This document shows positions 3,682 through 49,976 of a DNA stretch of 55,157 nucleotides, in pieces. Location of the stretch: positions 1 through 55,157 of the IMG/VR virus record IMGVR_UViG_3300030331_000318; one strand, 5' to 3'. The stretch comes from a virus. Each line of letters begins with the position of its first letter. Positions within the stretch are counted from its first letter, which is position 1. The notes under the pieces were generated by a model. It made no database searches. It worked only from the letters and a program-made list of their open reading frames with translations, and was not told the origin of the DNA. The translations under genes were made by a program, and so were the position numbers.

Positions 3682-3688
3682 TTACCAG

Positions 3689-4744: not shown

Positions 4745-4776
4745 AGTTTCCTCCATTGTATTTAAAACTATTAATT

Positions 4777-25757: not shown

Positions 25758-26029
25758 GTAGAGCAAAAAAAGTTGAACGAGTCATAAAAGGTTTAAAGAA
25801 AGCTAGTTCTACACATGCAAAACAAGCTAAAACTTTAGAATCTATAAAATTAAAAAAAGGCAAAAGTACAGTAAATAAAGCTGGAAATTATACTAAGCCT
25901 GGTATGCGTAAGGCACTTTTTAATAGGATTAAAGCTGGTTCTAAAGGCGGTAAGCCTGGTCAGTGGTCAGCTAGAAAAGCTCAGATGTTAGCTAAACAAT
26001 ATAAAGCCAAAGGTGGTGGCTATAAATAA
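25754..26029 (+). CDS. Basic small protein, marine phage type
   Basis: A 91-residue Lys-rich protein with the recognisable ending KPGQWSARKAQMLAKQYKAKGGGYK region (split here: KPGQWSARKAQ near residue 72). Similar proteins are frequent in cyanophages and pelagic phages, without known function. The charge suggests nucleic-acid binding. It is one of five very basic small proteins in this block. Confidence 0.65.
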   Translation: MSRAKKVERVIKGLKKASSTHAKQAKTLESIKLKKGKSTVNKAGNYTKPGMRKALFNRIKAGSKGGKPGQWSARKAQMLAKQYKAKGGGYK

Positions 26030-26603
26030 TATACAAATCAAAGGTATAGATATACCTACATCAGCCCACCCAGAAATAAAAAAACTTAAAAAAAAATATA
26101 ATGTACATTCTTTACATGGTAATAAAGTATGGAACTCTACATTTGTATTAATAGATTTATTAGATCAGTGTAGTTTTTTAAATGAGAATGTAGCTGATTT
26201 AGGTTGTGGATGGGGTGTATTAAGTTCTTATTTACAAAAGAAAGGTGCTTCAGTTACAGGTTATGATGCAGATAAAACTGTAAAACCTTATTTTGATTTA
26301 GTTTCAAAATTAATGGATGTAAATCCTAAGTTTAAAAATATTGATATTTTTAGTAAAGATTTACCTATGAGTCATGATGTTTATATAGCTTGTGATGTTT
26401 GTTTTTGGGAAGGACAAATTGATAATTGGATTACTTTAATAGAAGAAATAGTTTATCAAGATAAACAACTAATTATGTGTGATCCTGGTAGAGAGTCTTT
26501 TTGGGATTTATTAAAAAAATGTCAAGTGCCTCATATTATTGAAAGAAAATTTATAAACGAACCTAGAAAAACTGATGCATATATAGTTATGTTTGGAAGT
26601 TAA
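26013..26603 (+). CDS. Class I SAM-dependent methyltransferase (protein-lysine type possible)
   Basis: A 196-residue protein with SAM-binding motif I VADLGCGWGVLSSYL near residue 62 and an acidic residue ending strand 2 (VTGYDADK). A later motif DVYIACDVCFWEGQ recalls the METTL21/ETFB-type protein-lysine methyltransferases rather than DNA methyltransferases, which would have DPPY or NPPY. GTG codons at 26013 and 26016 are the candidate starts; a ribosome site AAAGGTGG is close. It sits between two Lys-rich protein genes, so these may be substrates (inference). Confidence 0.7.
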   Translation: MVAINNIQIKGIDIPTSAHPEIKKLKKKYNVHSLHGNKVWNSTFVLIDLLDQCSFLNENVADLGCGWGVLSSYLQKKGASVTGYDADKTVKPYFDLVSKLMDVNPKFKNIDIFSKDLPMSHDVYIACDVCFWEGQIDNWITLIEEIVYQDKQLIMCDPGRESFWDLLKKCQVPHIIERKFINEPRKTDAYIVMFGS

Positions 26604-26604
26604 A

Positions 26605-26847
26605 ATGGCATTAAAAGAAACACAAAAAAGTTTAAAAAGATGGACAGGACAAAAATGGACCACTGCTAGTGGTAAAAAATCTAGTGAAACTGGTGAAGTC
26701 TATGCTCCTAAAGCAACTATTGATAGATTAAAGTCATCTAAAAAAGGTAGAGCAAAATTATCAAGAGCTAATAGAATAAAAAGAAAAGCTACTGCTAGAG
26801 GCAAACAACATGCGAAACACGGATTACATAAAGGAAAGAGAAGATAA
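26605..26847 (+). CDS. Basic small protein (DUF5872-like)
   Basis: An 80-residue Lys/Arg-rich protein starting MALKETQKSLKRWTGQKW. The motif WTGQKWTTASGKKSSETGE resembles the DUF5872 type seen in phages and large DNA viruses. ATG at 26605 is preferred to TTG at 26593. It overlaps the thermonuclease start by one base. Function unknown; charge implies nucleic-acid contact. Confidence 0.6.
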   Translation: MALKETQKSLKRWTGQKWTTASGKKSSETGEVYAPKATIDRLKSSKKGRAKLSRANRIKRKATARGKQHAKHGLHKGKRR

Positions 26848-27266
26848 TGTATGAATATAAATGTGAAGTAACAAGAGTAGTTGATGGTGATACAGTTGAT
26901 GTAATTATTGATTGTGGTTTTTCTATATTACATAAAGCTAGAGTTCGTATGTATGGTATAGATACTCCTGAATCAAGAACTAGAGATTTAGATGAAAAGG
27001 CTAGGGGTAAATTAGCTTCTAAATATATACAAGATCATATTGATAATGGTGATGAGATAATTATTAAAACCGAAAAAGACAGCAAAGGAAAATTTGGTAG
27101 AATCTTAGGAAAAATATTTATTGATGGTAAAGATATTAACCAGTCAATGATTGATGAACATTTAGCAGTAGCTTATCATGGTCAAAGTAAAACTGATATA
27201 GAACTAGCTCATCTACAAAATAGATCATTATTGATTAAAAAAGGTATCTATAAACCATCATCATGA
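26847..27266 (+). CDS. Thermonuclease family (SNase-like) nuclease
   Basis: A 139-residue OB-fold nuclease. Conserved parts: VVDGDTVDV at the start, RVRMYGIDTPE with the catalytic Arg and then the Glu, and KFGRILGK with the second Arg. These match the active-site residues of staphylococcal nuclease (R35, E43, R87). No signal peptide is visible, so it probably acts in the cytoplasm on host DNA or RNA to supply nucleotides. It is common in marine phages. Confidence 0.9.
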   Translation: MYEYKCEVTRVVDGDTVDVIIDCGFSILHKARVRMYGIDTPESRTRDLDEKARGKLASKYIQDHIDNGDEIIIKTEKDSKGKFGRILGKIFIDGKDINQSMIDEHLAVAYHGQSKTDIELAHLQNRSLLIKKGIYKPSS

Positions 27267-27613
27267 ATGATATAGTAACAATAATACAGCAAGTAGGTTT
27301 TCCTATAGCAGCAGCTCTTGGTCTTGGTTGGTTTATTTATAAATTAATTATGCGTATTGTTGATGGCATGGAAAATAAATTAGATGTTGTTGATGATAAA
27401 GTTGCAGAACAAATAACAGCTATGGAACAAAGATTAGGAACAAAATTAGATTCACAACATGGCATATTAGTAGCTTTGATAGATAGGGTTCGTAGTCTTG
27501 ATAATGAAATTATTAGACAAGATACTTTAATAAAAACTATACTAGGAGTGCCACAATTAATAGATAGCAATAAGATTGCTAAGGCAGATAGAGATGATCA
27601 AAGAAAAGACTAA
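27263..27613 (+). CDS. Single-TM coiled-coil protein, possible lysis accessory
   Basis: A 116-residue protein: a membrane helix near residues 11-31 (FPIAAALGLGWFIYKLIMRI) followed by a coiled coil (MENKLDVVDDKVAEQITAMEQ). Similar single-TM plus coiled-coil proteins are found beside holin genes in marine phages. It overlaps the nuclease by 4 nt and the CsgF-like gene by 20 nt. It is not like CsgE, which would be a soluble periplasmic protein. Confidence 0.6.
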   Translation: MNDIVTIIQQVGFPIAAALGLGWFIYKLIMRIVDGMENKLDVVDDKVAEQITAMEQRLGTKLDSQHGILVALIDRVRSLDNEIIRQDTLIKTILGVPQLIDSNKIAKADRDDQRKD

Positions 27614-28091
27614 ATATAAACTAAGGGCTTTTGGATTTATAAAGTTAATATCCCTAAGTGTATTTTTAATAAATTTTTCATTATTCGTTAATTCTGACGA
27701 ATTATCTTTTAAGTTTAAAAGCCCTTCTTTTAGTGGTATAGGTACATCAGCACATTACTTAACCATAGATAATCAAGAGTATACAAGAAGAGAAGCTTTA
27801 GAAGCAGAAATACAAGCTTTAAAAGAGGCTGCTGAAAGAGATGCGGACAATACGACACTAGCTAGATTTATAAGAAACTTTGAATCTAGAATATTTGCAC
27901 AGTTATCTAGACAATTAGTAGATCAATTATTTGGAGAAAATCCAGCTACTGAAGGTAGTTTTACTTTATTTGATAATATTATTAGTTGGACTTCAGATGG
28001 CACAAACATAACTTTAAATATATTTAATACATTAGATGGAAGCACTACACAAATTACTATTCCTATTGGTGACTTTGGTTTTGGTACCTAG
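27594..28091 (+). CDS. csgF: CsgF-like curli secretion adaptor
   Basis: A 165-residue protein. A signal peptide or membrane anchor covers about residues 11-33. The mature start ELSFKFKSPSFSGIGTSAHYL corresponds, in part, to the CsgF pattern FxFxxPxFGGN...; then a helix RRNFESRIFAQLSRQL-type region, and a C-terminal beta part SDGTNITLNIFNTLDGSTTQ that parallels the CsgF end. CsgF binds the CsgG pore and guides curlin nucleation at the cell surface. ATG 27594 is chosen over TTG 27576. The final 56 nt encode, in another frame, the signal peptide of CsgG. The next gene being csgG strongly supports the call. Confidence 0.8.
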   Translation: MIKEKTKYKLRAFGFIKLISLSVFLINFSLFVNSDELSFKFKSPSFSGIGTSAHYLTIDNQEYTRREALEAEIQALKEAAERDADNTTLARFIRNFESRIFAQLSRQLVDQLFGENPATEGSFTLFDNIISWTSDGTNITLNIFNTLDGSTTQITIPIGDFGFGT

Positions 28092-28878
28092 TTGTGCATC
28101 AACATCAAAATACAATTTACCTTGTTTAACTAATCCAGAAGGAGATTATAAAGACCTAGTAACTATTATAGGTAAAGCAGAATGTTTTTCTGCAGATGCT
28201 TTTATAAATGAACCAATCACTGAAGCAATAAAAAATATACCACAACCTAAAAGAAAGCCAGTTGTAGCTGTATATAGATTTTTAGATCAGACAGGACAGA
28301 GAAAATCTATAGATGGTTTTGCAAGTTTTTCTACAGCTTTAACGCAAGCACCTGTAAATTATTTAATTAGAGCATTAAAGATATCAGATTTTTTTATAGT
28401 TGTAGAAAGAGTAGGTTTTGATCATATTACTAGAGAGAGACAAATAATAAGATCAGGTAGAGAAAAGTTTAATGATAATACACAGCAACAACCCTTACTA
28501 TTTGCTGGCATTATTATAGAAGGAGATATAGTAGATTATAATACTAATCTCAAAACAGGAGGAATTGGTGCAAGATACTTAGGCATTGGTTCTTCAAAAC
28601 AATATAGAGAAGATACAATTGTTGTTTCACTTAGGCTTGTATCAGTAAGCACAGGAGAAATACTGATAGAAACTTTATCTTCTAAAACAATTTTATCTGT
28701 AGCAGTATCAGCAGATGTATTTAGGTACATAGAAGACTATACAAAATTAGTAGAGTTTGAAACAGGTAGTGCTATGAATGAAAGTAAATCAATTGCTATA
28801 CAAGCCGCTTTAGAAACAGCAGTTGTTAATATAATTAATTTAGGTATCGAAAAAGGATACTGGGAGTACAATGAATAA
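28036..28878 (+). CDS. csgG: CsgG-like outer-membrane curlin secretion channel (lipoprotein)
   Basis: A 280-residue protein with a lipoprotein signal peptide ending VPSC (Cys20). The body follows E. coli CsgG closely: PVVAVYRFLDQTGQRKS, FSTALTQAPVNYLIRALK, FFIVVERVGFDHITRERQII, ILVEGDI-like strand, then the hallmark GGIGARYLGIGSSKQY and VSLRLVSVSTGEIL, and a final ETAVVNIINLGIEKGYWEY. CsgG forms a nonameric pore that exports curlins. At the constriction the E. coli Phe56 has a counterpart, but Tyr51 and Asn55 appear replaced (KSIDGFASFST). Length is the family norm (277). It overlaps neighbours by 56 and 8 nt. Confidence 0.95.
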   Translation: MEALHKLLFLLVTLVLVPSCASTSKYNLPCLTNPEGDYKDLVTIIGKAECFSADAFINEPITEAIKNIPQPKRKPVVAVYRFLDQTGQRKSIDGFASFSTALTQAPVNYLIRALKISDFFIVVERVGFDHITRERQIIRSGREKFNDNTQQQPLLFAGIIIEGDIVDYNTNLKTGGIGARYLGIGSSKQYREDTIVVSLRLVSVSTGEILIETLSSKTILSVAVSADVFRYIEDYTKLVEFETGSAMNESKSIAIQAALETAVVNIINLGIEKGYWEYNE

Positions 28879-29599
28879 AATAATTTATACAATAATATTT
28901 GCTTTTGTTTTGTTAACAAATGCAGATGATAATGAAATATATGTTAATCAAACAGGAAGTAATGCAAGCATAGACTTAGAACAACTAGGTAGTTCTAATA
29001 TTATAGGTGGTTCTGATTCTGTAGCTGGTACTATGACAAAAGCTACTCTTAATGGTGGTAGCATGACTTTAGATATTAATCAAATAGGTTCGTCTAACCA
29101 GTTTTTAACAGGAGGACTTTATGGTTCTGACTTTACTGGATTTTTTGAATTTGATGGTGACTCTAATATATTTGATATAGATTTAGATACTTCTGGATTA
29201 AATGGTGCAGACTTTGTGGATTTAAATATAGACATTACAGGTTCTAGCAATACTTTTGATGTAGATTTAGGTGAATCATCAGCAGTAGATTATCTTAATT
29301 TAGATTGGATTATAGATGGTGATAGCAATGCTTTTGATTATGCAATAGATTCTGAATATGCAACTAACTATGTAGATTTATTTGGTGATAGTAACACTAT
29401 TAATTTTACAGGTAGTGGTTATGGTAATAGTTCTACAGATGCTGGATATTTTTATTTAGACTTAACTGGTAGTTCAAATGTATACAATATTACTCAATCA
29501 TCAACTTTAGCAGCAGATTGGCTAAAAATAGAAAGCAATGGATCAAATCAAAACGTATGTATTATTCAATCTGATTCTGGCACTGCCACTTCATGCTGA
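28871..29599 (+). CDS. Curlin-like secreted amyloid repeat protein
   Basis: A 242-residue protein with a signal peptide (MNKIIYTIIFAFVLLTNA). The first two repeats have curlin QxGxxN signatures (EQLGSSN, NQIGSSN); later ones keep GSSN or GDSN but change Gln to Thr or Asp (DITGSSNTFD, IDGDSNAFD, DLTGSSNVYN). The protein is unusually acidic and ends with two Cys. Curlins are exported by CsgG and polymerise into cross-beta fibres. Position directly after csgG, with an 8-nt overlap, supports the role. The later repeats are degenerate, so amyloid formation needs testing. The final 62 nt overlap the FecR gene. Confidence 0.75.
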   Translation: MNKIIYTIIFAFVLLTNADDNEIYVNQTGSNASIDLEQLGSSNIIGGSDSVAGTMTKATLNGGSMTLDINQIGSSNQFLTGGLYGSDFTGFFEFDGDSNIFDIDLDTSGLNGADFVDLNIDITGSSNTFDVDLGESSAVDYLNLDWIIDGDSNAFDYAIDSEYATNYVDLFGDSNTINFTGSGYGNSSTDAGYFYLDLTGSSNVYNITQSSTLAADWLKIESNGSNQNVCIIQSDSGTATSC

Positions 29600-30632
29600 T
29601 AGTATAGGTGATATAACAGAGTTAAAAGGTTATGGCAGGATTGTTAGAGATGAGCCATATCCTGCTATATTAGATTTTGATATAAATTCGTATGATAATG
29701 TTCAAACTGCTAATGGCAGAATAGGAATAACATTTTTAGATGATAGTCGTGTTAGATTGACTGAGCATTCTAAATTAATTATTGACGAGTATATATTTAA
29801 TTCTAATCCAGATAAATCTAAAATGTCTCTTACTTTTGCAAGCGGCACAATAAGATTTGTTTCAGGTAGTGTAAATAAACTTAATAAAAAAAATGTAACT
29901 TTATCTACACCTACAGCAGAAATAGCAATATTAGGCACAGACTTTACAGTAACTGTAAATGAATTAGGAGAATCTTTAATTATATTGTTGCCTGGTGCTA
30001 ATGGTTTATCTAGTGGTGAAATAATAGTTTCTACAGCTGCAGGTCAGGTAACTCTTAATAAACCTTATCAAGCTACAACAGCTAGTATGTATGAACAGCC
30101 ACCAACAGAACCTGTAGAACTAGATATAGATTTACAGTTTATTGACAATATGTTAATAATTAATCCACCTAAAGAAAAAGTTGCAATAGAAGAAAGAGAA
30201 ATAGCTAGAAGGGATGATTATTTAGACTTTACAGATTTAGATATAGATTTTTTAAATGAAGATTTATTAGCACTAGAAGAGGACTTTGATTATAGTGAGC
30301 TTGATATTGATTATTTATCAGTAGATTTTTTAGAAGACTTATTAGATGTAATAGATGATTTAGATATACAAGAAGAAGATGAACTAAATCAATTTGTTTC
30401 TGCTGTGCCCATAACTGGAACATCTCTGGGTCAAGATTTAGAAACCCAAATAGTAACCATACTACAAGGTGATGAAATAAAAATTATTCGTAATATAAAT
30501 CAATATGTAACTTTAGAGTTAAATGCTGATCAAGGATATTCTGTTTTAATAATACAAGATGGTGTATCAAAAAGTATAACTATTAATAATAGTTCATCAT
30601 CAACAATACGAATATCTCAAGGATCAGGATGA
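29538..30632 (+). CDS. Periplasmic FecR-domain protein
   Basis: A 364-residue protein. A clean signal peptide of 20 residues ends LPLHA. Residues about 25-175 form a FecR domain: NVQTANGRIGITFLDDSRVR, IDEYIF, LTFASGTIRFVSG, and LSTPTAEIAILGTDFTV. Next comes a very acidic stretch (about 225-285) of repeats such as DLDIDFL and DFLEDLL. The C-terminal 70 residues are beta-rich and end ISQGSG. No membrane helix follows the signal peptide, so it is likely soluble in the periplasm or exported. FecR domains occur in sensors and beside CHASE2 cyclases in bacteria; the cyclase gene begins at a 4-nt overlap. Confidence 0.85.
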   Translation: MDQIKTYVLFNLILALPLHADSIGDITELKGYGRIVRDEPYPAILDFDINSYDNVQTANGRIGITFLDDSRVRLTEHSKLIIDEYIFNSNPDKSKMSLTFASGTIRFVSGSVNKLNKKNVTLSTPTAEIAILGTDFTVTVNELGESLIILLPGANGLSSGEIIVSTAAGQVTLNKPYQATTASMYEQPPTEPVELDIDLQFIDNMLIINPPKEKVAIEEREIARRDDYLDFTDLDIDFLNEDLLALEEDFDYSELDIDYLSVDFLEDLLDVIDDLDIQEEDELNQFVSAVPITGTSLGQDLETQIVTILQGDEIKIIRNINQYVTLELNADQGYSVLIIQDGVSKSITINNSSSSTIRISQGSG

Positions 30633-32374
30633 GCAAACATGCAATTTATATATTTATAATTGTAAGTTTTATTTATATTACAGTACAAAATTTTAGTTTT
30701 GTAGAAACTTTAAAACTTAAAACTTTTGATGTTTTTGTAGAAAAACAAGAACCATCAGGTAATTTTGTAATTTTAGATATAACAGATAAGGATGTTAGAG
30801 ATAGGGGAGGATACCCATTTCCTAGAAAAGATTTAGCTCAGATACAAGTAGACCTAATTAACAAAGGTGCACTAGGTGTTGGTTGGGTTATAAGTTTTGT
30901 AGATGCAGATAGATTTAATGGTGATCAAATTTTTGCAGATTATTTAAATTATATACCTACAGTAGTAGCAACTTTTGAAACAGATAATAATTTAAAACCA
31001 CCTACAACAGGAACTGTAATACTAGGACAAGATGTATATGGTATAGAGGCTAGAGGATATATACCAAATATAGACTTAATAAAAAAAAATGTACAAGAAG
31101 GTTTAGTATCTGCACCAGTAGATATAGATAACTTAGTCAGAAAAATTCCTCTATTGTATAAAACAAATGATGGCTGGACTCCATCGTTTGGTACACAAGT
31201 GTTAAAAGTATTAGCTGGTGCAGACACTTACATAATAAAGACAAGTGAAGCAGGTATAGAAGAAATAAGAGTTCCTGGTATACCGCCTACACCTTTAGAT
31301 AATTTAGGTAGAAAGTGGATAAGTTGGGTCGACACTCCTAAAACAACATTAAAAGAAATGGATGTTGAAGGTAAGTTTGTTTTTATAGGAGTAACTGCTA
31401 AAGGAGTGATGCCACAAGTAGCTGTACCTACAGGTCTTGTTTATCCGCATCATGTGCAAGCAGCTTTAGCAGAATCAATACTTATAGAAGATAGTCCTTA
31501 CATACCTAATTATGCTTTGTTACTAGAAATAACTATATTAATAGTATCGACATTATTAGTTTGGCTAATATTAAACACTTTAAATTTAAGTTATGGATTA
31601 TTAGGTTTCGGTTTAGTATTATTTGGCACATCTTATTATGGTATTCATTTAATAAGAAGTGGTTTATTAGTAGATGTAACATGGTCTTTAATAGCAAGTT
31701 TTTTTACTGGAGCAACTGCATTCTATTTAAATTACAGTGAGCAGTACAAATTAAGACAACAGATTAAAAAACAGTTTGAACATTATTTAGACCCTAGACA
31801 AGTTAAAAAATTACAAGACAATCCTGAATTATTAAAGTTGGGTGGAGAAAAAAGATATTGCACCTATTTATTTACTGATGTACGAGGCTTTACTAGTTTA
31901 AGTGAACAGTTAGAACCTGAAGAAGTAACAGAGCTAATGAATAAAGCTTTAACTATACAAGCCAAAGCTGTGCAAGATAATGGAGGTATGGTAGATAAAT
32001 ATATAGGAGATGCAATGATGGCTATATTTAATGCACCTATAGAATTAAATAATCATGAAGATGCTGCTATAAAAACAGCAATTCAAATACGACACGACAT
32101 AAAAGCAGCACAGTTAGGTATTGATATTGGAATAGGATTAAATTCTGGAGAAGCTGTGATAGGTAATATGGGAAGTGAAACACGATTTGATTATACAGCG
32201 ATAGGTGATGCTGTAAACCTTGGAGCTAGGATGGAATCAAGTTGTAAAGAGTTAAATACAGATTTAGTAATATCAGAACACACTATGAAAGCTAGTTCTT
32301 ATAAATTAAAATCATTAGGACAAATAAAAGTAAAAGGTAAAAATAAATCTACTAAGGTTTATACAGAGAGGTAG
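30629..32374 (+). CDS. CHASE2-domain adenylate cyclase (class III)
   Basis: A 581-residue membrane enzyme. TM1 at residues 5-20; CHASE2 periplasmic sensor at about 25-290 (DITDKDVRDRGGYPFPRKD, then PHHVQAALAESIL near its end); three TM helices at about 295-367; cytoplasmic class III cyclase domain from 409. Catalytic residues present: metal-binding D417 (FTDVRGFTS) and D461, purine-binding K457 (VDKYIGD), T523 (DYTAIGD), N530 and R534. The Lys/Thr pair fits an adenylate cyclase of IIIb type, making cAMP from ATP. All key residues are intact, so it should be active. It is rare for a phage to encode this enzyme. Confidence 0.95.
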   Translation: MSKHAIYIFIIVSFIYITVQNFSFVETLKLKTFDVFVEKQEPSGNFVILDITDKDVRDRGGYPFPRKDLAQIQVDLINKGALGVGWVISFVDADRFNGDQIFADYLNYIPTVVATFETDNNLKPPTTGTVILGQDVYGIEARGYIPNIDLIKKNVQEGLVSAPVDIDNLVRKIPLLYKTNDGWTPSFGTQVLKVLAGADTYIIKTSEAGIEEIRVPGIPPTPLDNLGRKWISWVDTPKTTLKEMDVEGKFVFIGVTAKGVMPQVAVPTGLVYPHHVQAALAESILIEDSPYIPNYALLLEITILIVSTLLVWLILNTLNLSYGLLGFGLVLFGTSYYGIHLIRSGLLVDVTWSLIASFFTGATAFYLNYSEQYKLRQQIKKQFEHYLDPRQVKKLQDNPELLKLGGEKRYCTYLFTDVRGFTSLSEQLEPEEVTELMNKALTIQAKAVQDNGGMVDKYIGDAMMAIFNAPIELNNHEDAAIKTAIQIRHDIKAAQLGIDIGIGLNSGEAVIGNMGSETRFDYTAIGDAVNLGARMESSCKELNTDLVISEHTMKASSYKLKSLGQIKVKGKNKSTKVYTER

Positions 32375-32378
32375 TATT

Positions 32379-32846
32379 ATGAAAAATATATTTAAAAATC
32401 TTTTAGGTGCAGTAGCACCGACACTAGGTACAGCGTTGGGTGGTCCTATGGGCGGTATGGCTGCTAATGTTATTTCAGAAGTTTTAGGTGTGCCAAATAA
32501 TCCTAAAGCTATAGAGAAAGGTATAGCAGATGCTACACCAGAACAACTAGCTGAAATAAAAAAAGCTGAACTAGCTTTTGAAGCAGAAATGAAAAAGCTA
32601 GAAGTTGATGTCTTTGCTCTTGAAGCACAAGAAAAACAAGATGCAAGAAAACATTTTTCTAAAGATTGGACAGCAAGAATAATAGGTATAGCTACTATAG
32701 GAGGATTTTTAGGTTATATATTTTTAGTAACATTACAACCACCTGAACAAAACTCAGAGGCTCTTATTAATTTAGTATTAGGTTATCTTGGTGGTTTAGC
32801 TAGTGCAATAATATCTTTTTATTTTGGTGCATCAAATAAAGATTAA
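32379..32846 (+). CDS. 3-TM holin family protein (GTA holin type)
   Basis: A 155-residue protein. N-terminal Gly/Ala-rich hydrophobic stretch (APTLGTALGGPMGGMAANV), a charged helix rich in Ala/Glu/Lys, then DWTARIIGIATIGGFLGYIFL and a last helix LVLGYLGGLASAIISFYFG. This matches the 3-TM holin family associated with gene-transfer-agent release and phage lysis. Holins open the inner membrane at a set time so that the endolysin reaches the wall. The lysozyme gene starts 11 nt downstream. It follows the cyclase by 4 nt. Confidence 0.8.
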   Translation: MKNIFKNLLGAVAPTLGTALGGPMGGMAANVISEVLGVPNNPKAIEKGIADATPEQLAEIKKAELAFEAEMKKLEVDVFALEAQEKQDARKHFSKDWTARIIGIATIGGFLGYIFLVTLQPPEQNSEALINLVLGYLGGLASAIISFYFGASNKD

Positions 32847-32856
32847 GGAGAATAAA

Positions 32857-33300
32857 ATGAATATATCTCAAGAAGGAAAATCTATTATAAAAAAATTTGA
32901 AGGTTGTAAATTAGAAGCCTATCAATGTCAGGCAGGAGTTTGGACAAATGGATGGGGAGCCACTAAAGATGTGAAAGAAGGAGATGTTTGGAGTCAATCA
33001 TATGCAGATGAAAGATTTGATGGTGATATAATTGAGTATGAAGACTACGTTAATAAATATGTAGAGGTGCCTTTAGAACAACATCAGTTCGATGCTCTTT
33101 GTTCATGGGTATATAATTTAGGTCCAAAAAATTTTAGAGAAAGCACTATGTTGAAAAAAATTAATGAACAAAATTTTGATGAAGTTCCAAAAGAAATAAG
33201 AAGATGGAACAAGGCAGGTGGAGAAGTTTCACAAGGTTTAGTACGCAGAAGAGAAGCTGAAGCATTGCTTTGGGATAATAAAGAATGGTATGAGGTGTAA
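32857..33300 (+). CDS. GH24 phage lysozyme (endolysin)
   Basis: A 147-residue T4/P22-type lysozyme that cleaves the NAM-NAG bonds of peptidoglycan. The catalytic pattern is Glu-8aa-Cys-5aa-Thr: FEG near residue 14, YQC with Cys in place of the usual Asp, and WTNGWG with the Thr. Cys at this place is found in some active phage lysozymes, and T4 lysozyme tolerates it. The core VPLEQHQFDALCSWVYNLG and RRREAEALLW match the family. A TAAGGAG site fixes the start at 32857. No signal or anchor is visible, so holin release is needed. Confidence 0.92.
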   Translation: MNISQEGKSIIKKFEGCKLEAYQCQAGVWTNGWGATKDVKEGDVWSQSYADERFDGDIIEYEDYVNKYVEVPLEQHQFDALCSWVYNLGPKNFRESTMLKKINEQNFDEVPKEIRRWNKAGGEVSQGLVRRREAEALLWDNKEWYEV

Positions 33301-39585: not shown

Positions 39586-41337
39586 ATGAGTTTAATTAGT
39601 ATTGCAAATGAATTAGAGTTTGTGCCACAAAATCAACTTGTGGAGTTTATGAATAATCCTAATTCTAGATATCCACAATACTTAGTTTTATCAGAAATAC
39701 AAAGACGTACACGATTACAAAAGATGTACGAAAATCAAACAGCAAAAATGAATAGACCTCAATCTACAGTAGCTGAAGAAGCTGTAATGGAATTTGCTAA
39801 TCAAGGTGCTGTGTCAAGTATGCCTGGAATCTCCTCAATCCCTTCACCAGATGCTGGGTTATCGAACATGGCACCGCCTTCTCCTATGCAGATGATGGCT
39901 AATGGTGGTTTAACTTCTTTACCAGGTACAAATATTGGCACGTTAGATGATTTTAGAAGAAGAATGATAGAAGAATACATGGCAGCAAATGTAGGTGCTA
40001 CTACACAAGAAGCTATAGCTTATGCCAATCAGAATGCAGAAACTATTTATAATGAAAGACTTAGAGAATCTCAATCTATAGAAAGACAACCCTTAAATTT
40101 ACAGTCTTTTGATCCTGATCAAATAGCATCAAATGTTTTAGCAGGTGCAGAAGCAAGTGCAGAAAGAAGAAAAGAACTTGCTTTAGATGGTTTTATGGGA
40201 GATAGATTAAAACGTGAAGGTATAGATATAAGTGATTTATCGTTAGGTGATGTAATAAGTGAATATGACAAGTTATATAGAAAAGATAATCCTATACAAG
40301 GAGCTTTGATGAATTTACGTGATTCATCTTTTGGTCAAGGACTTTTAGATTTGACTGTAGGTGAGGACAGAAAATTTGATATTGGTGATGCTGCTAAACT
40401 AGCTCTTGGAGGAGCAGGTATAAAAGCCGCCTCTAGGTATGGTCCAAGTATATTTCAAGCAGTTCGTAATAGATTAGGTTTGGGTTCTGCAACACCAGCA
40501 TTACCAGCACCCGCAACTGTACCTGCAGTTGTTTCTAGAGGACTAGGCACATCAATGGTTCCATACGTAGCTCGTCCTCCAGCTGTTGTACCACCAGCAG
40601 GTCCAAGTATGTTTAGTAGATTTACTACTCCTATTATTAATTTTGTAAAAAATAGACCATTTACAACGACAGGAATTGGATTATTAGCAGCTCCACCAAT
40701 TTACAATTTTTTTAATCCAGAGGATGAGCCAGAAAAATTTGATATGAGTACCTTATATAGCGATATAGACTTTGAAGATTTAACAAAAAATAGACAAACA
40801 AAAACAGCACCTAGTGGAGCTGAAAGAGTAGCAGCTTTAAATCTACCTAAAGTAGAGATAGAACCATTTACAGAAGAAGATAGACAAAGAGAGTTAGATG
40901 TATATGCTTTAGGAGCACTTGCAGAAGCTATTGGTGGTTCTAAAAATTTTGGTGAGGCTGGAGTTAAACTTGGAACAGCAGCTAGAGGTTTACCTGCTGT
41001 TAGAGAGCAACAAAGAAAACGTAGTCTTGAAGCAGCATCTGCTCAAAGAGCACAAGCAATAGAAGAATTCAAACTTGCTAATGATTTAGAAAGAATTGAT
41101 ATTGCTAGAGTTCAGGCTGAAAATACTGGTAATAGAGTTCTTGCAGGAGAACTAGCAAGTGTAAGAGCAGAAATTGCAGCTATACTTAAAGATAGTGTAG
41201 GTGTACTAAGTACAGCACAACAAGCTAGATTATCACAATTAATACAAGAAGCTGAAATTCTTAAAATGGATTTATATGGTAAGTTAGGTATGGAATATGT
41301 TCCACCTGGTGGCGATATTATAACAAATCAAAAATGA
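39586..41337 (+). CDS. Internal virion / ejection protein
   Basis: A 583-residue protein. N-terminus: a short motif on tail proteins (ELEFVPQNQLVEFMNNPNSR, RYPQYLVLSEIQRR) common in marine phages. The middle has disordered Pro/Ala/Val segments and a hydrophobic stretch near residue 360 (FTTTGIGLLAAPPIYNFF). The C-terminus is a long helix (QRKRSLEAASAQRAQAIEEF). It overlaps the giant gene by 4 nt, so they are likely made together and packaged as ejection proteins. Confidence 0.7.
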   Translation: MSLISIANELEFVPQNQLVEFMNNPNSRYPQYLVLSEIQRRTRLQKMYENQTAKMNRPQSTVAEEAVMEFANQGAVSSMPGISSIPSPDAGLSNMAPPSPMQMMANGGLTSLPGTNIGTLDDFRRRMIEEYMAANVGATTQEAIAYANQNAETIYNERLRESQSIERQPLNLQSFDPDQIASNVLAGAEASAERRKELALDGFMGDRLKREGIDISDLSLGDVISEYDKLYRKDNPIQGALMNLRDSSFGQGLLDLTVGEDRKFDIGDAAKLALGGAGIKAASRYGPSIFQAVRNRLGLGSATPALPAPATVPAVVSRGLGTSMVPYVARPPAVVPPAGPSMFSRFTTPIINFVKNRPFTTTGIGLLAAPPIYNFFNPEDEPEKFDMSTLYSDIDFEDLTKNRQTKTAPSGAERVAALNLPKVEIEPFTEEDRQRELDVYALGALAEAIGGSKNFGEAGVKLGTAARGLPAVREQQRKRSLEAASAQRAQAIEEFKLANDLERIDIARVQAENTGNRVLAGELASVRAEIAAILKDSVGVLSTAQQARLSQLIQEAEILKMDLYGKLGMEYVPPGGDIITNQK

Positions 41338-44300
41338 GTTTACATAGATTACCTGATGGCAGAGTAATAGAGATAAAAGATAATCTTGGTGATCAAGAGT
41401 TAATTGCTTTGCAAAATCATTTAGCTGAATTATATCCTGGATATTACACACCTTATATAGAAGAAGCAGAAAGAACTTTTGGTGGTGAAATATTTAATGC
41501 AGTTAAACAAATACCAGGCGGATTTATCAATTCTTTTCTTACTGCAGGAGAAGGTGTTGTAAATTATTTTGACCAAGGTAATGATAATGCTGTTGGTAAT
41601 CTTTTAAGAAATGCTCAAGAAGCTGTAAGTGATACTTATAGTCCGTTAAAAGGTTATGAAGATGCTTACTCTACAGGACTAGGACAAGGGCTTGGTTCAT
41701 TTGCTTCTTATTTTGTTCCAGGTACATTAGCATCTAAAGCTGCACAAGGCACTAAAGGTTTTCAAGCTTTAAGTCCTGCAGAAAAATTTGCTAGACAATC
41801 AGCAGCAGGTATAGCAGGTGTTTCAGGTTTAGCTGTGCCAAGCGGTATAGCAATAGCTGGTAGAACTATGGAACAAGCTAAAGCAATGGGTGAAGAAGTT
41901 TCTCCATTTCAAGAATCTTTAGCAGAAACATTAGGTGGTGTTATTGGTTTTACAGAAACAATTACACCTGCAAGATTTTTAAGATATGTTCCTAAATCAG
42001 CAGGTAAATTATTACCCAGTGACAGATTAATGTTTGCTTTACAATCAGGTGGAATAGAAGGAGCTCAAGAAGCTTTTGCAGGAGTAGCACAAAATGCTGT
42101 AGCAAGAGGTATTTACAGTGACAAAGTTCCTATTTTTGAAAGCACTTTAGATGATTTTACCATAGGTGGTGGTGTAGGTTTTATAGCTGATTTAGTTACT
42201 CGTGGTTTAATGGATAAACGTGGCATAGGTCGAGAATATTTATTAGATAAAGAAAGAGAACAAAGAAAAGTTACTGAACAACAAAGATTTAATAAGAGAA
42301 AAGATTTTAAAAAAGCCATAGATGAAGGTGCAGTTGTATTACCTTTAGAATCTGAAGTAGATGTTATTAATACACAAGATGCACAGGTAGATGTTCCTGT
42401 TGTGGAATCTACTTTAGAGTTTGCAGAAATTCCATTATTAGAAGAGTTTGAAATAATACAGAACCCAAATGGTACCGCATCTATAATAGGGATAAACACT
42501 AGTAAAGATTATGGTGTTTTTTCAAATATAGAAGAAGCAGCAAAACAAGCAGTCGTATTGCGTAAAAAACTTAGAAATGATTACGTTGATGCTGCGGTAA
42601 AACAAAATTTATCAGTTAATGGTTTATATGGTAATGGCACAGCATATACATTAGGTAGAAAGGTTTATGATCCTATAAGTAATTTAATTCCAGTACAAGT
42701 TTTAGCATCTTTAGATTCACGTATTAATATTGCTAGAAAAACAAAAGCACAAAAAGAAAAAGAAATAAAACAAAAACTTGATCGTTCAATCATAAATGAT
42801 TTACTAGGTGATCAACAATTAAATGAAGAACAATTAATTCAACTAGAAGAACAACTTCTAAAACAACAAACAAGTTTTCCAATCAAAGCTACTAAAATAG
42901 ATGCATCTAGTTTAGTAGGTCAATTGCACACCCGTGCTAGAAAAAAAGGTATTGCACCTAAATCATATTACACTCCACAAGAAGCTAAAAAAATATTATT
43001 GCCTGCTGACTTTAATTCTTTGATGTCAGAGAAAGCTCATGTTATTGAAAAGACACAAAGAGAAACAGGTGATCGTGTTGCTATAGCTAGATCAAGAGAA
43101 AAGATAGGTGTTACAAGAAGTGATTTCAAAAAAGTTTTTAAATCTAAGAATATAATTTCAGATTTAAATTCACCTGCATTTGAATATATAGCTGAACAAA
43201 TTACAGGTACTAAATCATTTAATAATATGAATCGTGGGCAAAAAGAATTATTGATTAATGAATTAAAGAGATTGCCTAGATTTGATGTTGAAACAAAACT
43301 GCCTGACTTTAGACCAAGAGCATATAGCGTTAATGATCTTAATAGATTATATACAGAATATAAAGGTCAAAGAATTACTAACAATGAAATAAAAGCATTT
43401 GTAAAAAATAAACAAACAGGAAAAAATTTAACACCTAAAGAATTAAAAGCTTTAAGAGAAGATTTAGTTAATAGTGGTAGGGCAGATAAAGTAAACAATA
43501 GATTAGAAATGTCTGATGATTTTGAAAAACGACAAGCTAAACGAGCACAAAGTTTGAACGAATCAACAGAAGAGTTTGCACAAAGACTAAGAGAAACAAC
43601 AGCTTTATCAGAACAAGAAATAAACAATGTTTTAGAAAAAGATATTAAGGATGTAGTTGAGACTGATGAACTCTTAGCATTGCCTGCTCCAGAATCTGTA
43701 GGCAAATACAAAAAACTATTTGAGTTTGCTAGAAAAAGATTAAATCAATTAGGGTTAAAAGATATAGCATTAAAGTTTGATAATGCTTTGAAAATGTCTA
43801 CAGAGATTAGATTTGTAGATGGTAAGCCTGTCTTTAATCCTGTACCTTTTGAAAATAAAGCTTCATTTGATATTCCTATGAGAACAATTCTTGCAGCTAT
43901 GAATAGAATTGACCCTGATGGTACTTTAACTGAAGCAGAATTTCAAAGTAAACTTGCAGGTCTTATGGATCATGAAGCTATTCATGCTCTTAGAGAACTA
44001 GACTTATTAACAGAAGATGAATATCAAACATTAGTAGAATATGCTATCGAGAAGTTGCCTGAAGATTTAAAAAGAGGTATTACAAGAGCATATCCAGATA
44101 ATCTTGTTATTCGTGATGAAGAGTATGTTGCAGAATTATTTAGACTTTATAGAGAAAATCCAAAACAAATAATTGGAAAACCAAAAAGTATTATCAAAAG
44201 AATTATTGATTTCTTTTTTGGTGCTGTTGATTCTATTTTTGGTGCTGGCTTTAGAAGCCCTGAAAGTATATTACAAGATTTAGATACAGGAGTTATAGGT

Positions 44301-47300
44301 AGCAGAGCAAGAAATAAAGTAAGAAGTTTAAGAGAAACACAATTAAAACAAGCAGCAGGTTTAACAAATCCAGAATCTAGATTTTCTAAAGAAATAGACA
44401 CAGTAAGAAATTTATTAGCTACAGCAGAATCTGAATTATATACAGCAGAAAGTATTTTAAATGTCGATGGTCCTTATGTTGGTAAGAAGAGATTCCAAAA
44501 ATTATTTTCTGATATGTTAAGAGCACAAAACAAAGTTGATAATTTAAGAGAAGAATTAAAAGATTTAACAGGAGGTGTAAAAAGTTTTGAAAAACGAAAT
44601 GCAGTTGAAGTTGGAGAACAATTAAGCAATAAAGAAAAAGAAGAATTGCTTGATGGTGAATTTTACTATCATGCTACTTCAACAAAAGCAGCTAATTCAA
44701 TAAGAGAAAAAGGAATAAGACTTACCGATGATGATGGTAATCTTTTACCTTCTAATTTTATTAGAGCAGAAACTGGACAAAGATATCAAGAATCTCCAAA
44801 AATATTTGCTTTTAAAAATCCAGCTGATGCTGTTGCTTTTTATAGAGGAGTATATTCAAACTCGGAATTAGACGAATTATCTTTAGTAAAATTTAGAAAA
44901 TCTGATTATAACTTTGAGCCTGATCCAGGAAATACTGGAGAACCTATGTTTAGTCAAACTGCTAAGAATCTTAACATTAATCTAGATGATGGCGAATATA
45001 AAGCTTCTGTACAAACAACTTTAGGTACATCAGCAATAGAACCAGAAGACATAGTAGGTGTAAGAACATTTAAAGAGTTAGAAAATTCTTTTGCAGACCC
45101 TACACATTTTCGTGGTTATGGAAGGCATCGTGAAACGATGCTTGATGTTGGTGGTAATCCTTATGGTTTTGCTAAGATTATATCTGATTCTTTTGAATCT
45201 AAATCAAGCCCTGAAATTGTATCAAGATTTTCTAAAAGTGGTTTAACTGCACAAAATACTTTATATCCAGGAGAAACTGAACGAAGTCTTTTAACATTAT
45301 ATAGAAGTAATAAAGGTAATTTAACTGCAAATAATTTACAAGCATTACATAAATCTGTAAGTCCACAATCTAAAAGAAAACATAAGTGGAGAGATATCAA
45401 AGAAATTAGAAATGATTTAAGAGATGCTATCACTAAGAATATGGATTATCTTTGGTACGAGAGATGGGGTGTGGGCATTCCAAATATAGTTGGCGATGTT
45501 AACATGAATGAATTTTCTGCAATCTTTGGTATTACATCAGCACAAAGCAAACCAGAACAAAATCTTAAAGATACTTTAAGAGCTATGATTGTAGCAAGAA
45601 AGATTGATCCAGTTGAACAACCAAAAAAATATATAGCTGAACTCAAAAAGTTTGGTGTAGCTATGAACAATAATGCTAGATTAAATGATATAGCTAAAGT
45701 ATATAAAACAGGTTTATATAATAGACAAGGCACAGGACAAAAGACTGCTACTTATGCTTTAGAAATATTAGATGCAGCTAATAATAGGTTTACACCTTTT
45801 TCTGTAATTGATAGGCATATGCTTAGAAAGTTTGGTATTGAGCTACAAGAAGGACAGAAAACTACTGAACAAGAATATAGAATTACACAAGGTTTAATAT
45901 CTTTACTTGCAGCAGAAAATATTACAGTTAATGGTGAACCAAGAAACTTTACACCAAGACAAGTCCAAGCATTGCTATGGGCACATCAAAGATATTCTGG
46001 TCCAACTAATGTAACTAATGAAGGCAGTTATAACTCAGCGGTATCTGCAGCACAAGAAGAAATATCTGATTTAAAGAATTTAGAAAGTGAAGGATTGTTT
46101 TCTAAAGATAGAACATTCTCTGGTGTTTTTATTCATCAGCCAAGATTTAACAGTAAAGCAAAATCAAATCTATTTGATACTGACTTAAAAAATAATATGT
46201 ATCAGATGATTGTTAATGAAGCACCAACTGTTTTATTTGAATTTAAGATGGGCAAAACAAGAGGATATTTACCAGAGAATATTGACCAGTCAATAAATTT
46301 TGATCAGTTCTTTGACTATCAAGAGAATATGTTGAATGCCATAACATCAGGCAATAAGATTAGATTCTTGCGTGAGCTAGGAATACCACATGAAATTACA
46401 AGATCAGCTGGAACGTATGATGGTTACCTAAATCCAAATATATTATTAAAGCTGCCTGGAGCAGAACCAAGATTAGTTCGTGCTTTAGCACAAATATTTA
46501 CTGATGCATTTATGCAAGATTCTGCAATAACTTTGAGACCAACAAAACAAGGTGTTTTTCAGACTGGTTTAATTATTGAGAAATCAGATCAAAGTTTATT
46601 TACTGTTGCTGAGTTACAAGATTTAAATAGAAGTTTATCTGAAATGACTAGAGGAGGAGAGCAAGTAAACTTTACATTACAAGCTACCGATAAAACAGGT
46701 ATAGTTTTAATTGATCCTATTTCATTCAATAAAGATAGACCTTATACTAAACAAGATGCAAATAATTTTGCAGAAAGTATTAGACCAATTCTAGGTGGAA
46801 AAGGTTATAATTTAAAAAGATATGGACAAGAAAGCGAATACATTGAATACGGAGCAGAAAGCAGCTACAGCCCAGGAACTAGATCAGCTATACGAGGACT
46901 TAGGGATAGAGAAAGTCTCCTCGAATCATCCGATTTACAACGAGCCGCCCTCCGTGATCTTTACATCCCCGCCTACGAAGCCTACAAAAAGTTCGCCAAA
47001 GAAATAGGCTTAACACAAGAACAAGCACCTAATCTAAATTTAAAACCATACGAACAAGAAAACTCAGCACTTGCAGGAGAGACTGTATTAGCTGATATAG
47101 ATATAGCCGAGGTACAACGAGAAGCTCGCAGGAGAGCAGAAAGATATTCTAGGGGTAATATACCTAGATTTAATACAAATGCTAGTCCTGTAGCTCTTGC
47201 CATAGCTTTTGAATATGAAGCTAATCCAAAGAAATTTGATGTACCGCCAGATATATCAAGTAGATTTTATAGAGATTATGCCAAGATACCTAAAGGTTAT

Positions 47301-49976
47301 GAAGGTGTCTTAGATGATATAGGCGGTGCAGAGCAACCAAGCGAATCATTCGGTCAAAGTATTTTAAAATCTTTAGGATGGCGAGGCAGTATAGGTAATT
47401 GGTTAAGTGATGCAAGAACACAGTTTATTGATAAATTAAATGATGTTGAAAAAGGAATAATTCAATCAGCTGAAAAGAGTGCTGAAGTAAGAGAATTAGA
47501 AAATCTTGCAGATACTAGTGCTATTGCAGCTTTGCGTCATGCTGATAGAGCAAGAGGTATATTTGCAGCCATGTTAAAAAATGGTGTGCCAACACTCGAA
47601 AAAGGATTGACCTCTGTTAAAGACTTTGAGTATGGAGGATTGTTAGAAATATTTGCACCTCTGTTTGCTGATCCAGAAGTAAACCTAGAACAACTATTTA
47701 AGATATATGCGATAGCACAAAGAAGTGAAAGGTTAGCTATGGAAGGAAAAAAAGTTCCAGTAACCGAAGAAACAAAAATTAAAGCAAAACAAATAGAACA
47801 AGACTTTCCTATTGTTAAAGAAGTTTGGAATAAGTATCAAGCATATAACAATGAAGTGATTAAGTTTGCAGTAGATTCAGGAATACTTAGTTACGATAGA
47901 AGTAAAAATGAACTAATAAAAGATATAGTTGAAAATACAGATAACAAAGCAAAAGATTTAGTTAATTTAGAACTAAATGATTTGTTAAAAATAGCTGCTG
48001 CAGAAGGAATAGAAACTAGAGGCACAGCACAGATATGGTTAGATAATTCAGATTATTATCCTTTCTATAGACAGATGCAAGACGAAACTATTAAAGGTCC
48101 AAATATTGCAGCAGGTTATATTTCAGGTAATCCACTAAATATAAAGTTAAAAGGTAGTAAAGAAGATATAAATATCTCGCCATTAGAAGCTATTGCACGA
48201 AATAATTTAGCGATTGTTACAGCAGCTATGAAGAACGAGGGTCTTGCAAGACTTGCTAGAAACTTTGAGCTTGCAGGTATGGCAGACCGTGTACCAGCTA
48301 AAAAAGCAAAAGGTGCTGACATAATGCCAGTATTTATAGATGGTGAAAGAGTATTTTTCAAAGTTGATGATCCATTATTAATAAATGGTTTACAAGCAAT
48401 GGGCATAAATGATCAAGGTATTTTAGGACAAGTATTAGGAGCACCTGCAGGGTTCTTGCGAGAAACTATAACTCGTGATCCAGGATTTATGTTTGTTAAC
48501 TTATTAAGAGATAGTCTGTCAACTGCAGTAACTTCAGGAGCAGATATTACACCTATAGTGGATACATTTGATAAATTTTTTAATTCAAATTTAACTGAGT
48601 TAGAAAGATTTGGAATAGTAGGTGGGTACGATTTTAGTAATGACCCACAAAATATTAAGCAGTATATAAAGAAAGAATATAGAAAAATGGGTATAGGAAA
48701 TAATGGTGCCTTGACTGCAACAGATGCTGTTATAAAACTTTGGGATTGGTTAGGAGAATATACAACAAAATCAGATGGAGCAACTCGTTCTGCAGTATAT
48801 GATAAAATTTTTGAACTAACAGGTAGTCAAGCAGAAGCCGCCTATCAAGCATTAGAGATAATAAACTTTGGTAGACGGGGAGCAAGTCCAATATTTAGAC
48901 TTGTAACTACAGCAGTAACATTCCTTAATGCAAGACTTCAAGGGTTAGATGTATTAGGTAGAGCACATTTAGGAAGGTATTCTGCTGTCAGTAAGTTTGG
49001 TAAAGACCAAACACTTGAAGACATGAGAAATGGTATTGCTTTGGGCACTTTTCAAAGAGGCATGTTTTTAGCATTATTAACTGGTCTTTATTATGTGATG
49101 TTTAGTGATGAAGAAGAGTACAAAAATGCTAGACGAGAAGTAAGAGATGACAACTGGATTATCCCTCTATTTGAGGGAATGCCAGCTTTAAAAATACCTA
49201 TACCATTTGAAGTAGGTGTGCTATATAAGGTCGTGCCTGAAAGAGCTTTAGACTTAGCGATAGGAGATGCAGACCTTGATGAAACAATGAAGACTTTAGG
49301 TAGACAGCTCGGAGTTACACTAAAAGTAGACCTAACACCACAAGTAGTAAAACCTTTAATAGAGGTTATCAATAATAGAAATAATTATACTGGTCAAGAT
49401 ATAGTTCCATATTACATGGAGCAAGGCATGGAAGCAGGATATCAATCTAGATACAGTACAAATGAATTTGTGAGACTTCTGGGAGAAACACTTAATATTT
49501 CTCCGCTTAAGTTAGAATACTTTCTAAGAGGCTATACAGGAACGATAGGCACTTATGTTCTATCTACAGTAGATGCAGTCACAAGACAGTTTACCGACAG
49601 AGATGTAATCATGCCAAGAATAGATTCAGCTCCATTGCTTAGAAGATTCTTTCAGACAGAGCTTGGTGGCGGATATCAACAACAGTTTTACGAGCTTAGA
49701 GCAGAAAGCGATAAGTTTATACAAACATTAAATAGTTTGAAAAGAGAGGGTAGATTAGAGGAAGCACAGGCATTCCTTTTAAATAATCAAGGCTTGGCAA
49801 GAACAAGACCTCAAATACTTGCACTAGAAAGATATATGAATAACTACAGAAAACAAAGAGACAGAGTTTTAAACTCAGACCTATCCCCTGAAAACAAAAA
49901 GGCTATACTAGAGCAGTTGGATTACGAAAGAGATATTAGATTAATGTATTTGAATACACTAAAGGAACAAATTTGA
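41334..49976 (+). CDS. Giant polyvalent virion protein (2880 aa): metallopeptidase, ADP-ribosyltransferase-like and LPD domains
   Basis: The N-terminal 250 residues alternate Gly/Ala-rich hydrophobic stretches, as in injected proteins. HEAIH at residues 880-884, with a later acidic ligand candidate (RDEEYVAELF), gives a zincin metallopeptidase. Residues about 1108-1170 (FYYHATSTKAANSIREKGI, then RAETGQRYQESPKIFAF) resemble ADP-ribosyltransferases of polyvalent proteins. Residues 1260-1570 are a further domain (GITSAQSKPEQNLKDTLRAM) close to DUF7178-type. Near residue 2525 is an LPD38-type motif (TFLNARLQGLDVLGRAHLG). Polyvalent proteins are packaged and injected to disarm or reprogram the host. 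Being the largest gene in the tail block, it probably fills the role of T7 gp16-like ejection protein. It overlaps the convergent gene by 18 nt. Confidence 0.85.
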   Translation: MSLHRLPDGRVIEIKDNLGDQELIALQNHLAELYPGYYTPYIEEAERTFGGEIFNAVKQIPGGFINSFLTAGEGVVNYFDQGNDNAVGNLLRNAQEAVSDTYSPLKGYEDAYSTGLGQGLGSFASYFVPGTLASKAAQGTKGFQALSPAEKFARQSAAGIAGVSGLAVPSGIAIAGRTMEQAKAMGEEVSPFQESLAETLGGVIGFTETITPARFLRYVPKSAGKLLPSDRLMFALQSGGIEGAQEAFAGVAQNAVARGIYSDKVPIFESTLDDFTIGGGVGFIADLVTRGLMDKRGIGREYLLDKEREQRKVTEQQRFNKRKDFKKAIDEGAVVLPLESEVDVINTQDAQVDVPVVESTLEFAEIPLLEEFEIIQNPNGTASIIGINTSKDYGVFSNIEEAAKQAVVLRKKLRNDYVDAAVKQNLSVNGLYGNGTAYTLGRKVYDPISNLIPVQVLASLDSRINIARKTKAQKEKEIKQKLDRSIINDLLGDQQLNEEQLIQLEEQLLKQQTSFPIKATKIDASSLVGQLHTRARKKGIAPKSYYTPQEAKKILLPADFNSLMSEKAHVIEKTQRETGDRVAIARSREKIGVTRSDFKKVFKSKNIISDLNSPAFEYIAEQITGTKSFNNMNRGQKELLINELKRLPRFDVETKLPDFRPRAYSVNDLNRLYTEYKGQRITNNEIKAFVKNKQTGKNLTPKELKALREDLVNSGRADKVNNRLEMSDDFEKRQAKRAQSLNESTEEFAQRLRETTALSEQEINNVLEKDIKDVVETDELLALPAPESVGKYKKLFEFARKRLNQLGLKDIALKFDNALKMSTEIRFVDGKPVFNPVPFENKASFDIPMRTILAAMNRIDPDGTLTEAEFQSKLAGLMDHEAIHALRELDLLTEDEYQTLVEYAIEKLPEDLKRGITRAYPDNLVIRDEEYVAELFRLYRENPKQIIGKPKSIIKRIIDFFFGAVDSIFGAGFRSPESILQDLDTGVIGSRARNKVRSLRETQLKQAAGLTNPESRFSKEIDTVRNLLATAESELYTAESILNVDGPYVGKKRFQKLFSDMLRAQNKVDNLREELKDLTGGVKSFEKRNAVEVGEQLSNKEKEELLDGEFYYHATSTKAANSIREKGIRLTDDDGNLLPSNFIRAETGQRYQESPKIFAFKNPADAVAFYRGVYSNSELDELSLVKFRKSDYNFEPDPGNTGEPMFSQTAKNLNINLDDGEYKASVQTTLGTSAIEPEDIVGVRTFKELENSFADPTHFRGYGRHRETMLDVGGNPYGFAKIISDSFESKSSPEIVSRFSKSGLTAQNTLYPGETERSLLTLYRSNKGNLTANNLQALHKSVSPQSKRKHKWRDIKEIRNDLRDAITKNMDYLWYERWGVGIPNIVGDVNMNEFSAIFGITSAQSKPEQNLKDTLRAMIVARKIDPVEQPKKYIAELKKFGVAMNNNARLNDIAKVYKTGLYNRQGTGQKTATYALEILDAANNRFTPFSVIDRHMLRKFGIELQEGQKTTEQEYRITQGLISLLAAENITVNGEPRNFTPRQVQALLWAHQRYSGPTNVTNEGSYNSAVSAAQEEISDLKNLESEGLFSKDRTFSGVFIHQPRFNSKAKSNLFDTDLKNNMYQMIVNEAPTVLFEFKMGKTRGYLPENIDQSINFDQFFDYQENMLNAITSGNKIRFLRELGIPHEITRSAGTYDGYLNPNILLKLPGAEPRLVRALAQIFTDAFMQDSAITLRPTKQGVFQTGLIIEKSDQSLFTVAELQDLNRSLSEMTRGGEQVNFTLQATDKTGIVLIDPISFNKDRPYTKQDANNFAESIRPILGGKGYNLKRYGQESEYIEYGAESSYSPGTRSAIRGLRDRESLLESSDLQRAALRDLYIPAYEAYKKFAKEIGLTQEQAPNLNLKPYEQENSALAGETVLADIDIAEVQREARRRAERYSRGNIPRFNTNASPVALAIAFEYEANPKKFDVPPDISSRFYRDYAKIPKGYEGVLDDIGGAEQPSESFGQSILKSLGWRGSIGNWLSDARTQFIDKLNDVEKGIIQSAEKSAEVRELENLADTSAIAALRHADRARGIFAAMLKNGVPTLEKGLTSVKDFEYGGLLEIFAPLFADPEVNLEQLFKIYAIAQRSERLAMEGKKVPVTEETKIKAKQIEQDFPIVKEVWNKYQAYNNEVIKFAVDSGILSYDRSKNELIKDIVENTDNKAKDLVNLELNDLLKIAAAEGIETRGTAQIWLDNSDYYPFYRQMQDETIKGPNIAAGYISGNPLNIKLKGSKEDINISPLEAIARNNLAIVTAAMKNEGLARLARNFELAGMADRVPAKKAKGADIMPVFIDGERVFFKVDDPLLINGLQAMGINDQGILGQVLGAPAGFLRETITRDPGFMFVNLLRDSLSTAVTSGADITPIVDTFDKFFNSNLTELERFGIVGGYDFSNDPQNIKQYIKKEYRKMGIGNNGALTATDAVIKLWDWLGEYTTKSDGATRSAVYDKIFELTGSQAEAAYQALEIINFGRRGASPIFRLVTTAVTFLNARLQGLDVLGRAHLGRYSAVSKFGKDQTLEDMRNGIALGTFQRGMFLALLTGLYYVMFSDEEEYKNARREVRDDNWIIPLFEGMPALKIPIPFEVGVLYKVVPERALDLAIGDADLDETMKTLGRQLGVTLKVDLTPQVVKPLIEVINNRNNYTGQDIVPYYMEQGMEAGYQSRYSTNEFVRLLGETLNISPLKLEYFLRGYTGTIGTYVLSTVDAVTRQFTDRDVIMPRIDSAPLLRRFFQTELGGGYQQQFYELRAESDKFIQTLNSLKREGRLEEAQAFLLNNQGLARTRPQILALERYMNNYRKQRDRVLNSDLSPENKKAILEQLDYERDIRLMYLNTLKEQI

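Follow-up and report, generated by a model that had tools for sequence, protein, structure and literature searches.

Curli-export genes linked to a FecR-CHASE2 cyclase gene pair in a putative HTVC023P-type podophage and in other marine phages

Gene cassettes related to the bacterial curli (type VIII) secretion system were published for marine phages in 2020-2022, and the genome described here is a further example of this kind. CsgF and CsgG were reported from pelagimyophages (Zaragoza-Solas et al. 2020, PMC7029224) and from the Methylophilales phage Melnitz, for which Buchholz et al. 2022 (PMC9004378), who took csgA/B to be missing, proposed a role in lysis. According to Wittmers et al. 2022 (PMC9599517), nine HTVC023P-type podophages as well as myophages carry a full set that includes a "histidine kinase", FecR and a cyclase. 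The same article proposes an alphaproteobacterial origin of the module and its transfer between phage families, and reports metatranscriptome expression of an equivalent module. The ideas of amyloid display, adhesion and a block to superinfection have already been put forward; our literature search found no paper showing fibres from any of these phages. Bacterial curli systems (csgBAC-csgDEFG of E. coli and the csgFG loci of Alphaproteobacteria) have the CsgG and CsgF families and the lipoprotein channel motifs in common with the phages, but differ by CsgE, CsgC and CsgD, which were not found in the phage unit. In view of the published whole modules, the description of such a set in a phage as unusual, given in an initial annotation of this DNA, can no longer be upheld. 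The whole modules also go beyond the isolated csgG annotations in marine viral data that it mentioned.

The window, which is the entire stretch of 55,157 nucleotides that was analysed, is part of a 58,182-base IMG/VR virus record. Its portal protein is 46% identical to that of phage 023Pt_psg01 and 43.5% identical to that of Pelagibacter phage HTVC023P, and by this similarity the phage probably belongs to the HTVC023P-type lineage. Pelagibacter is a presumed host, because the portal match is just 43-46% and other podophages are equally close (42-44%). The three overlapping ORFs at 27594-29599, initially annotated as csgF, csgG and a curlin-like gene within the late block and next to virion and lysis genes, were confirmed both in identity and in setting. 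These limits proved too narrow, however: the whole unit extends from 27263 to 32374 and also includes a FecR gene, a cyclase gene and an obligate small membrane gene, all of which had been missed. The features are as follows.

27263..27613, + strand: small membrane/coiled-coil protein, 116 aa (phrog_18771)
27594..28091, + strand: CsgF-like adaptor with N-terminal signal sequence, ATG start (PF10614, phrog_35372)
28036..28878, + strand: predicted CsgG-type outer-membrane channel lipoprotein (PF03783, E. coli CsgG structures)
28871..29599, + strand: secreted curlin-like repeat protein, presumed export substrate (repeat motifs, ladder, beta-solenoid model)
29538..30632, + strand: FecR-domain protein with signal sequence (PF04773)
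30629..32374, + strand: CHASE2-domain membrane adenylate cyclase (class III), 581 aa (PF05226, PF00211)
32379..32846, + strand: putative holin, context, outside the cassette (phrog_1544, 1.3e-22, unknown function)
32824..33300, + strand: phage lysozyme/endolysin, context (PF00959, 4.9e-47)

Adjacent genes overlap by 56 nt (csgF/csgG), 8 nt (csgG/curlin), 62 nt (curlin/FecR) and 4 nt (FecR/cyclase). Relatives of the putative holin, which together with the endolysin follows the unit, occur in 68 phage records; among those listed, one bears the name holin. Upstream of the cassette there is a gene for a tail-fibre-like protein that has an S74 chaperone domain, and a methyltransferase-like and a staphylococcal-nuclease-like gene (26013-27266, +) are located immediately upstream; in many relatives an SNase-family gene is found between cassette and lysozyme instead. 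Elsewhere in the window there are adjacent genes for an AAA-type ATPase (weak), DUF3150 and a DUF2201 VWA/metallopeptidase-like protein, which resemble a MoxR-VWA type operon (1371-4786, -), a gene for a protein of 2880 aa that has an LPD38 domain (large polyvalent protein) at its C-terminus (41334-49976, +), and one for a Sak-type single-strand annealing protein (52128-52841, -; PF06378, 1.7e-44).

The gene order agrees with that published for pelagiphages: upstream gene, CsgF, CsgG, CsgA/B, FecR and an optional cyclase. The module of Wittmers et al. (PMC9599517) resembles the window in portal lineage, in gene order and in being without CsgE, CsgC and CsgD, but has two curlin genes where the window has one. 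HTVC008M (KC465899) is likewise annotated with CsgF, CsgG and curlin, followed by a FecR-like hypothetical protein and a cyclase, with 33-44% identity to the window on CsgG and cyclase. It differs in encoding, between the FecR-like protein and the cyclase, an additional long protein that contains curlin-like repeats, and in being a T4-like myophage with the curli unit close to replication genes. Melnitz (PMC9004378) shows the same order including FecR and cyclase, at 30-37% identity to the window, but has two curlin-repeat genes, and its cyclase has S in the motif at the Asn position.

CsgF and CsgG are identified with confidence. CsgF matches PF10614 (2.1e-15; 57.5 bits, cut-off 25.8) and phrog_35372 (2.5e-36). 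CsgG matches PF03783 (2.9e-54; 184 bits, cut-off 20.8), gives a further profile match at 3e-66, and aligns with E. coli CsgG structures over 214 residues at 4e-50. The GGIGARYLGIG motif and the lipobox pointed out previously are present, the latter as a lipobox-like VPSC in the signal sequence (VASC in the nearest relatives and similar in others). The set is complete, as had been claimed, only in the sense of a minimal alphaproteobacterial-type set: CsgE gave no match in a Pfam scan of the cassette and the other window proteins (the smallest ORFs were partly scanned), and no CsgC homologue was seen in the phage unit. Some bacterial systems, too, do without the CsgE gate. A CsgG-like protein is also encoded on OR851715.1 (1,499 bases, Salmonella phage S.Kent 1-2-1), which is possibly host sequence.

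The curlin assignment is the weak part of the cassette identification. In the HMM search with the curli families that had been suggested as a check, CsgF and CsgG exceed the cut-off while the window curlin stays below that of PF07012 (E 0.0094; 16.3 bits, cut-off 20.7); the profile is matched by five of 13 aligned relatives (best 8.6e-6). The repeat itself exceeds chance, because seven G[SD][SDN]N motifs occur at a spacing of 22-33 residues against 0.24 in shuffled sequences. Moreover, the Q/G/N positions of the ladder do not vary across an alignment which reaches down to 30% identity and takes in an HTVC008M protein annotated as curlin minor subunit. The protein is modelled as stacked strands resembling a beta-solenoid (pLDDT 73), similar to models of phage "Curlin associated" proteins (TM 0.72-0.73). 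Fold support comes from phage models, because a comparison with the PDB gave no match at E <= 0.001. Ladder and predicted fold argue for a curlin identity. The previous label "QxGxxN-type" is approximate, as the strict form occurs just twice. In the nearest relative (L002:8676-9287) the curlin frame ends early (204 vs 242 aa), which is either a frameshift or a sequencing error. The C-termini of podophage curlins have a conserved pair of cysteines (C230, C242), absent from HTVC008M and Melnitz, between which a disulphide is possible.

We collected 199 distinct viral csgG loci among the matches listed, with CsgG, the small gene and FecR as seeds, and scored them with profiles of the window genes built from relatives, counting only loci with enough flank. 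As the set consists of those loci that match the window proteins best, distant phages are under-sampled. Among the matches listed, CsgF is present in 183 of 183 loci, the small gene upstream of CsgG in 169 of 169, curlin in 175 of 175, FecR in 153 of 153 and the cyclase in 40 of 44. The linkage is also found from the other side, again among the matches listed: CsgF/CsgG come next in 74 of 74 small-gene homologues with at least 1 kb downstream, and FecR-seeded loci have curlin upstream in 59 of 59 cases and CsgG in 52 of 52. Among the matches listed, no related contig with sufficient flank departs from this gene order; the survey for conserved synteny suggested in the initial annotation thus gave a positive result. 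All six cassette genes are under purifying selection, with dN/dS values of 0.13-0.19 in comparison with a related contig (L006). Hundreds of contigs from marine phages carry the curli-export set, and phages of this kind are widespread.

A chimeric assembly of phage and bacterial DNA, suggested by the bacterial look of the genes and nothing further, has a negligible probability. Three contigs from other metagenomes (L002, L005 and L006) repeat the gene order of the window between SNase gene and tail gene, with 61-98% protein identity, and the cultured phages HTVC008M and Melnitz carry the module, so that this explanation is refuted.

A profile scan of genome contigs for a bacterial source yielded phage-like contigs binned into MAGs. 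The phage cassette occurs on MAG contigs labelled Maricaulis, Synechococcus, Sphingobacteriales, Planctomycetaceae and others (L040-L050). Because they show the phage gene order we read these as phage, and they have probably been misbinned.

The constancy of the cassette bears on the proposal made for Melnitz (PMC9004378), that CsgG/CsgF form a gated outer-membrane hole which, in the manner of a pinholin, times or helps lysis without any fibre. The cassette of the window adjoins a putative holin and an endolysin, and its obligate small membrane gene has a weak similarity to holin profiles (best E 0.005), as such a role might lead one to expect. However, among the matches listed the substrate is never lost, nor is FecR, and curlin is under purifying selection; that curlin is never missing argues against a pore-only role in lysis. 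The premise that csgA/B are absent fails because two curlin-repeat proteins are annotated in the GenBank record of Melnitz, and the units of the myophages HTVC008M and Melnitz are located near replication genes, not lysis genes. We consider the lysis-hole explanation quite improbable.

The small protein has one N-terminal hydrophobic segment followed by a coiled-coil-like helix, and matches phrog_18771 (unknown function) at 5e-17. By its position in the module we take its gene to be the one published as "histidine kinase" (PMC9599517). No kinase features are found in the sequences analysed here. The 121 distinct homologues among the matches listed measure 63-117 aa and share no conserved His (the best column reaches 45%); the DxGxG motif occurs in 0 of 121, and no Pfam kinase profile matches the small protein or nine representative homologues. 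An assignment as histidine kinase was therefore rejected. The protein is presumably an obligate inner-membrane partner within the cassette.

FecR is the sole domain detected in the FecR-domain protein (PF04773, 2.9e-10). Anti-sigma domains of the FecR/PupR type are found as matches to its model (E 4e-4 to 1e-3), and the protein starts with a signal sequence and has no cytoplasmic anti-sigma part. As judged from its sequence it does not have the hallmarks of a FecR anti-sigma factor, and it is presumed to be a periplasmic or envelope partner of the cyclase. We also considered whether its C-terminus is a hidden curlin repeat, which was rejected for want of profile similarity in that part. The cyclase (PF05226, 5.9e-25; PF00211, 3.4e-20) has the complete class III catalytic set, with D417 and D461 as metal-binding Asp, K457 and T523 for adenine, and N530 and R534, and thus an intact active site; D417, K457, D461, N530 and R534 are kept in 115 of 115 cyclases.

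The same two domain types are adjacent in bacteria, where clusters of CHASE2 cyclase and FecR genes are described for Campylobacterota (PMC9239204). In Alphaproteobacteria, FecR is found within 5 kb of CHASE2 at 12 of 32 places (0.37 expected); these places are from 22 genomes that were picked for strong CHASE2 matches. Unlike the phage pair, the bacterial pairs are not tied to csgG, and the bacterial CHASE2 cyclase frames mostly have about 650-1,000 aa, whereas the window cyclase behind FecR has 581 aa. Four alphaproteobacterial csgFG loci have neither FecR nor a CHASE2 cyclase within about 8 kb, and one of these genomes (G084) has a FecR-CHASE2 pair on a separate contig. Because the pair occurs apart from curli, the phage unit seems to be made up of two bacterial modules that have been combined.

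That CsgG is a pore for the uptake of a cofactor or of iron, with FecR as an iron regulator, was suggested in PMC9599517 and, for uptake, in PMC7029224, and is in line with the FecR family name. We regard this as very improbable: there is a signal sequence instead of an anti-sigma part, no FecI sigma factor or FecA/TonB receptor gene is adjacent to the FecR gene, in bacteria FecR domains are found next to CHASE2 cyclases, and the obligate curlin is left unaccounted for.

The cyclase poses a puzzle. Of 60 Pelagibacteraceae genomes, 58 showed no CRP-type receptor or cNMP-binding domain, and class III cyclases and CsgG were likewise absent from 58 of the 60. The two genomes with CsgG are the same two that have the cyclase, the genes being a few kb apart on one contig, which is consistent with binned phage DNA. 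A cNMP receptor encoded by the phage was also considered, and no cNMP-binding protein was found there. The role of the cyclase is puzzling because relatives of the presumed host (58 of 60) show no CRP-type cAMP receptor and none was found in the phage.

We favour, with moderate confidence, a minimal set of curli secretion genes combined with a cAMP signalling pair that senses the periplasm, by which curlin would be brought to the surface of the infected cell at a late stage. The position of the cassette suggests late expression. CsgG and CsgF would then form an outer-membrane channel in a host which has none, and the curlin-like protein would leave through it and coat the cell with an amyloid-like layer. 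An envelope-located FecR protein and an inner-membrane CHASE2 cyclase may report the state of envelope or export by making cAMP. What reads the cAMP is a matter of speculation. A doubtful but possible extension is a two-part device from separate bacterial modules, a curli exporter and an envelope-sensing cAMP transmitter together with the small protein, in which a receiver of non-CRP type, a host or phage protein, times or gates export or lysis; this takes hosts to be without curli or a known cAMP receptor.

As to the benefit, we may speculate that sibling cells are held together as next hosts or that superinfection is blocked. Capture of siblings is weakened, for culture conditions, by the finding that Melnitz-infected cultures did not clump (PMC9004378). 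That the putative layer chiefly shields the infected cell against superinfection was proposed in PMC9599517, and a surface change foreign to the host is a classic exclusion strategy. Its position in the late block, though, suggests an expression that is late for exclusion, and a passive coat needs no co-retained envelope sensor and cyclase; as the chief function, shielding is unlikely.

New or corrective in this analysis are the unsupported "histidine kinase" label, the obligate nature of curlin, the apparent make-up from two modules and an intact cyclase active site where 58 of 60 Pelagibacteraceae genomes show no CRP-type receptor. The co-occurrence counts weaken the pore-only lysis model and remove support for that label. 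A cyclase for which no receptor is known in the presumed host poses a well-defined question that experiments can address. SAR11 bacteria are among the most abundant in the sea. If the cassette works as proposed, infection would equip streamlined planktonic cells with a sticky surface of amyloid, which is otherwise beyond their means.
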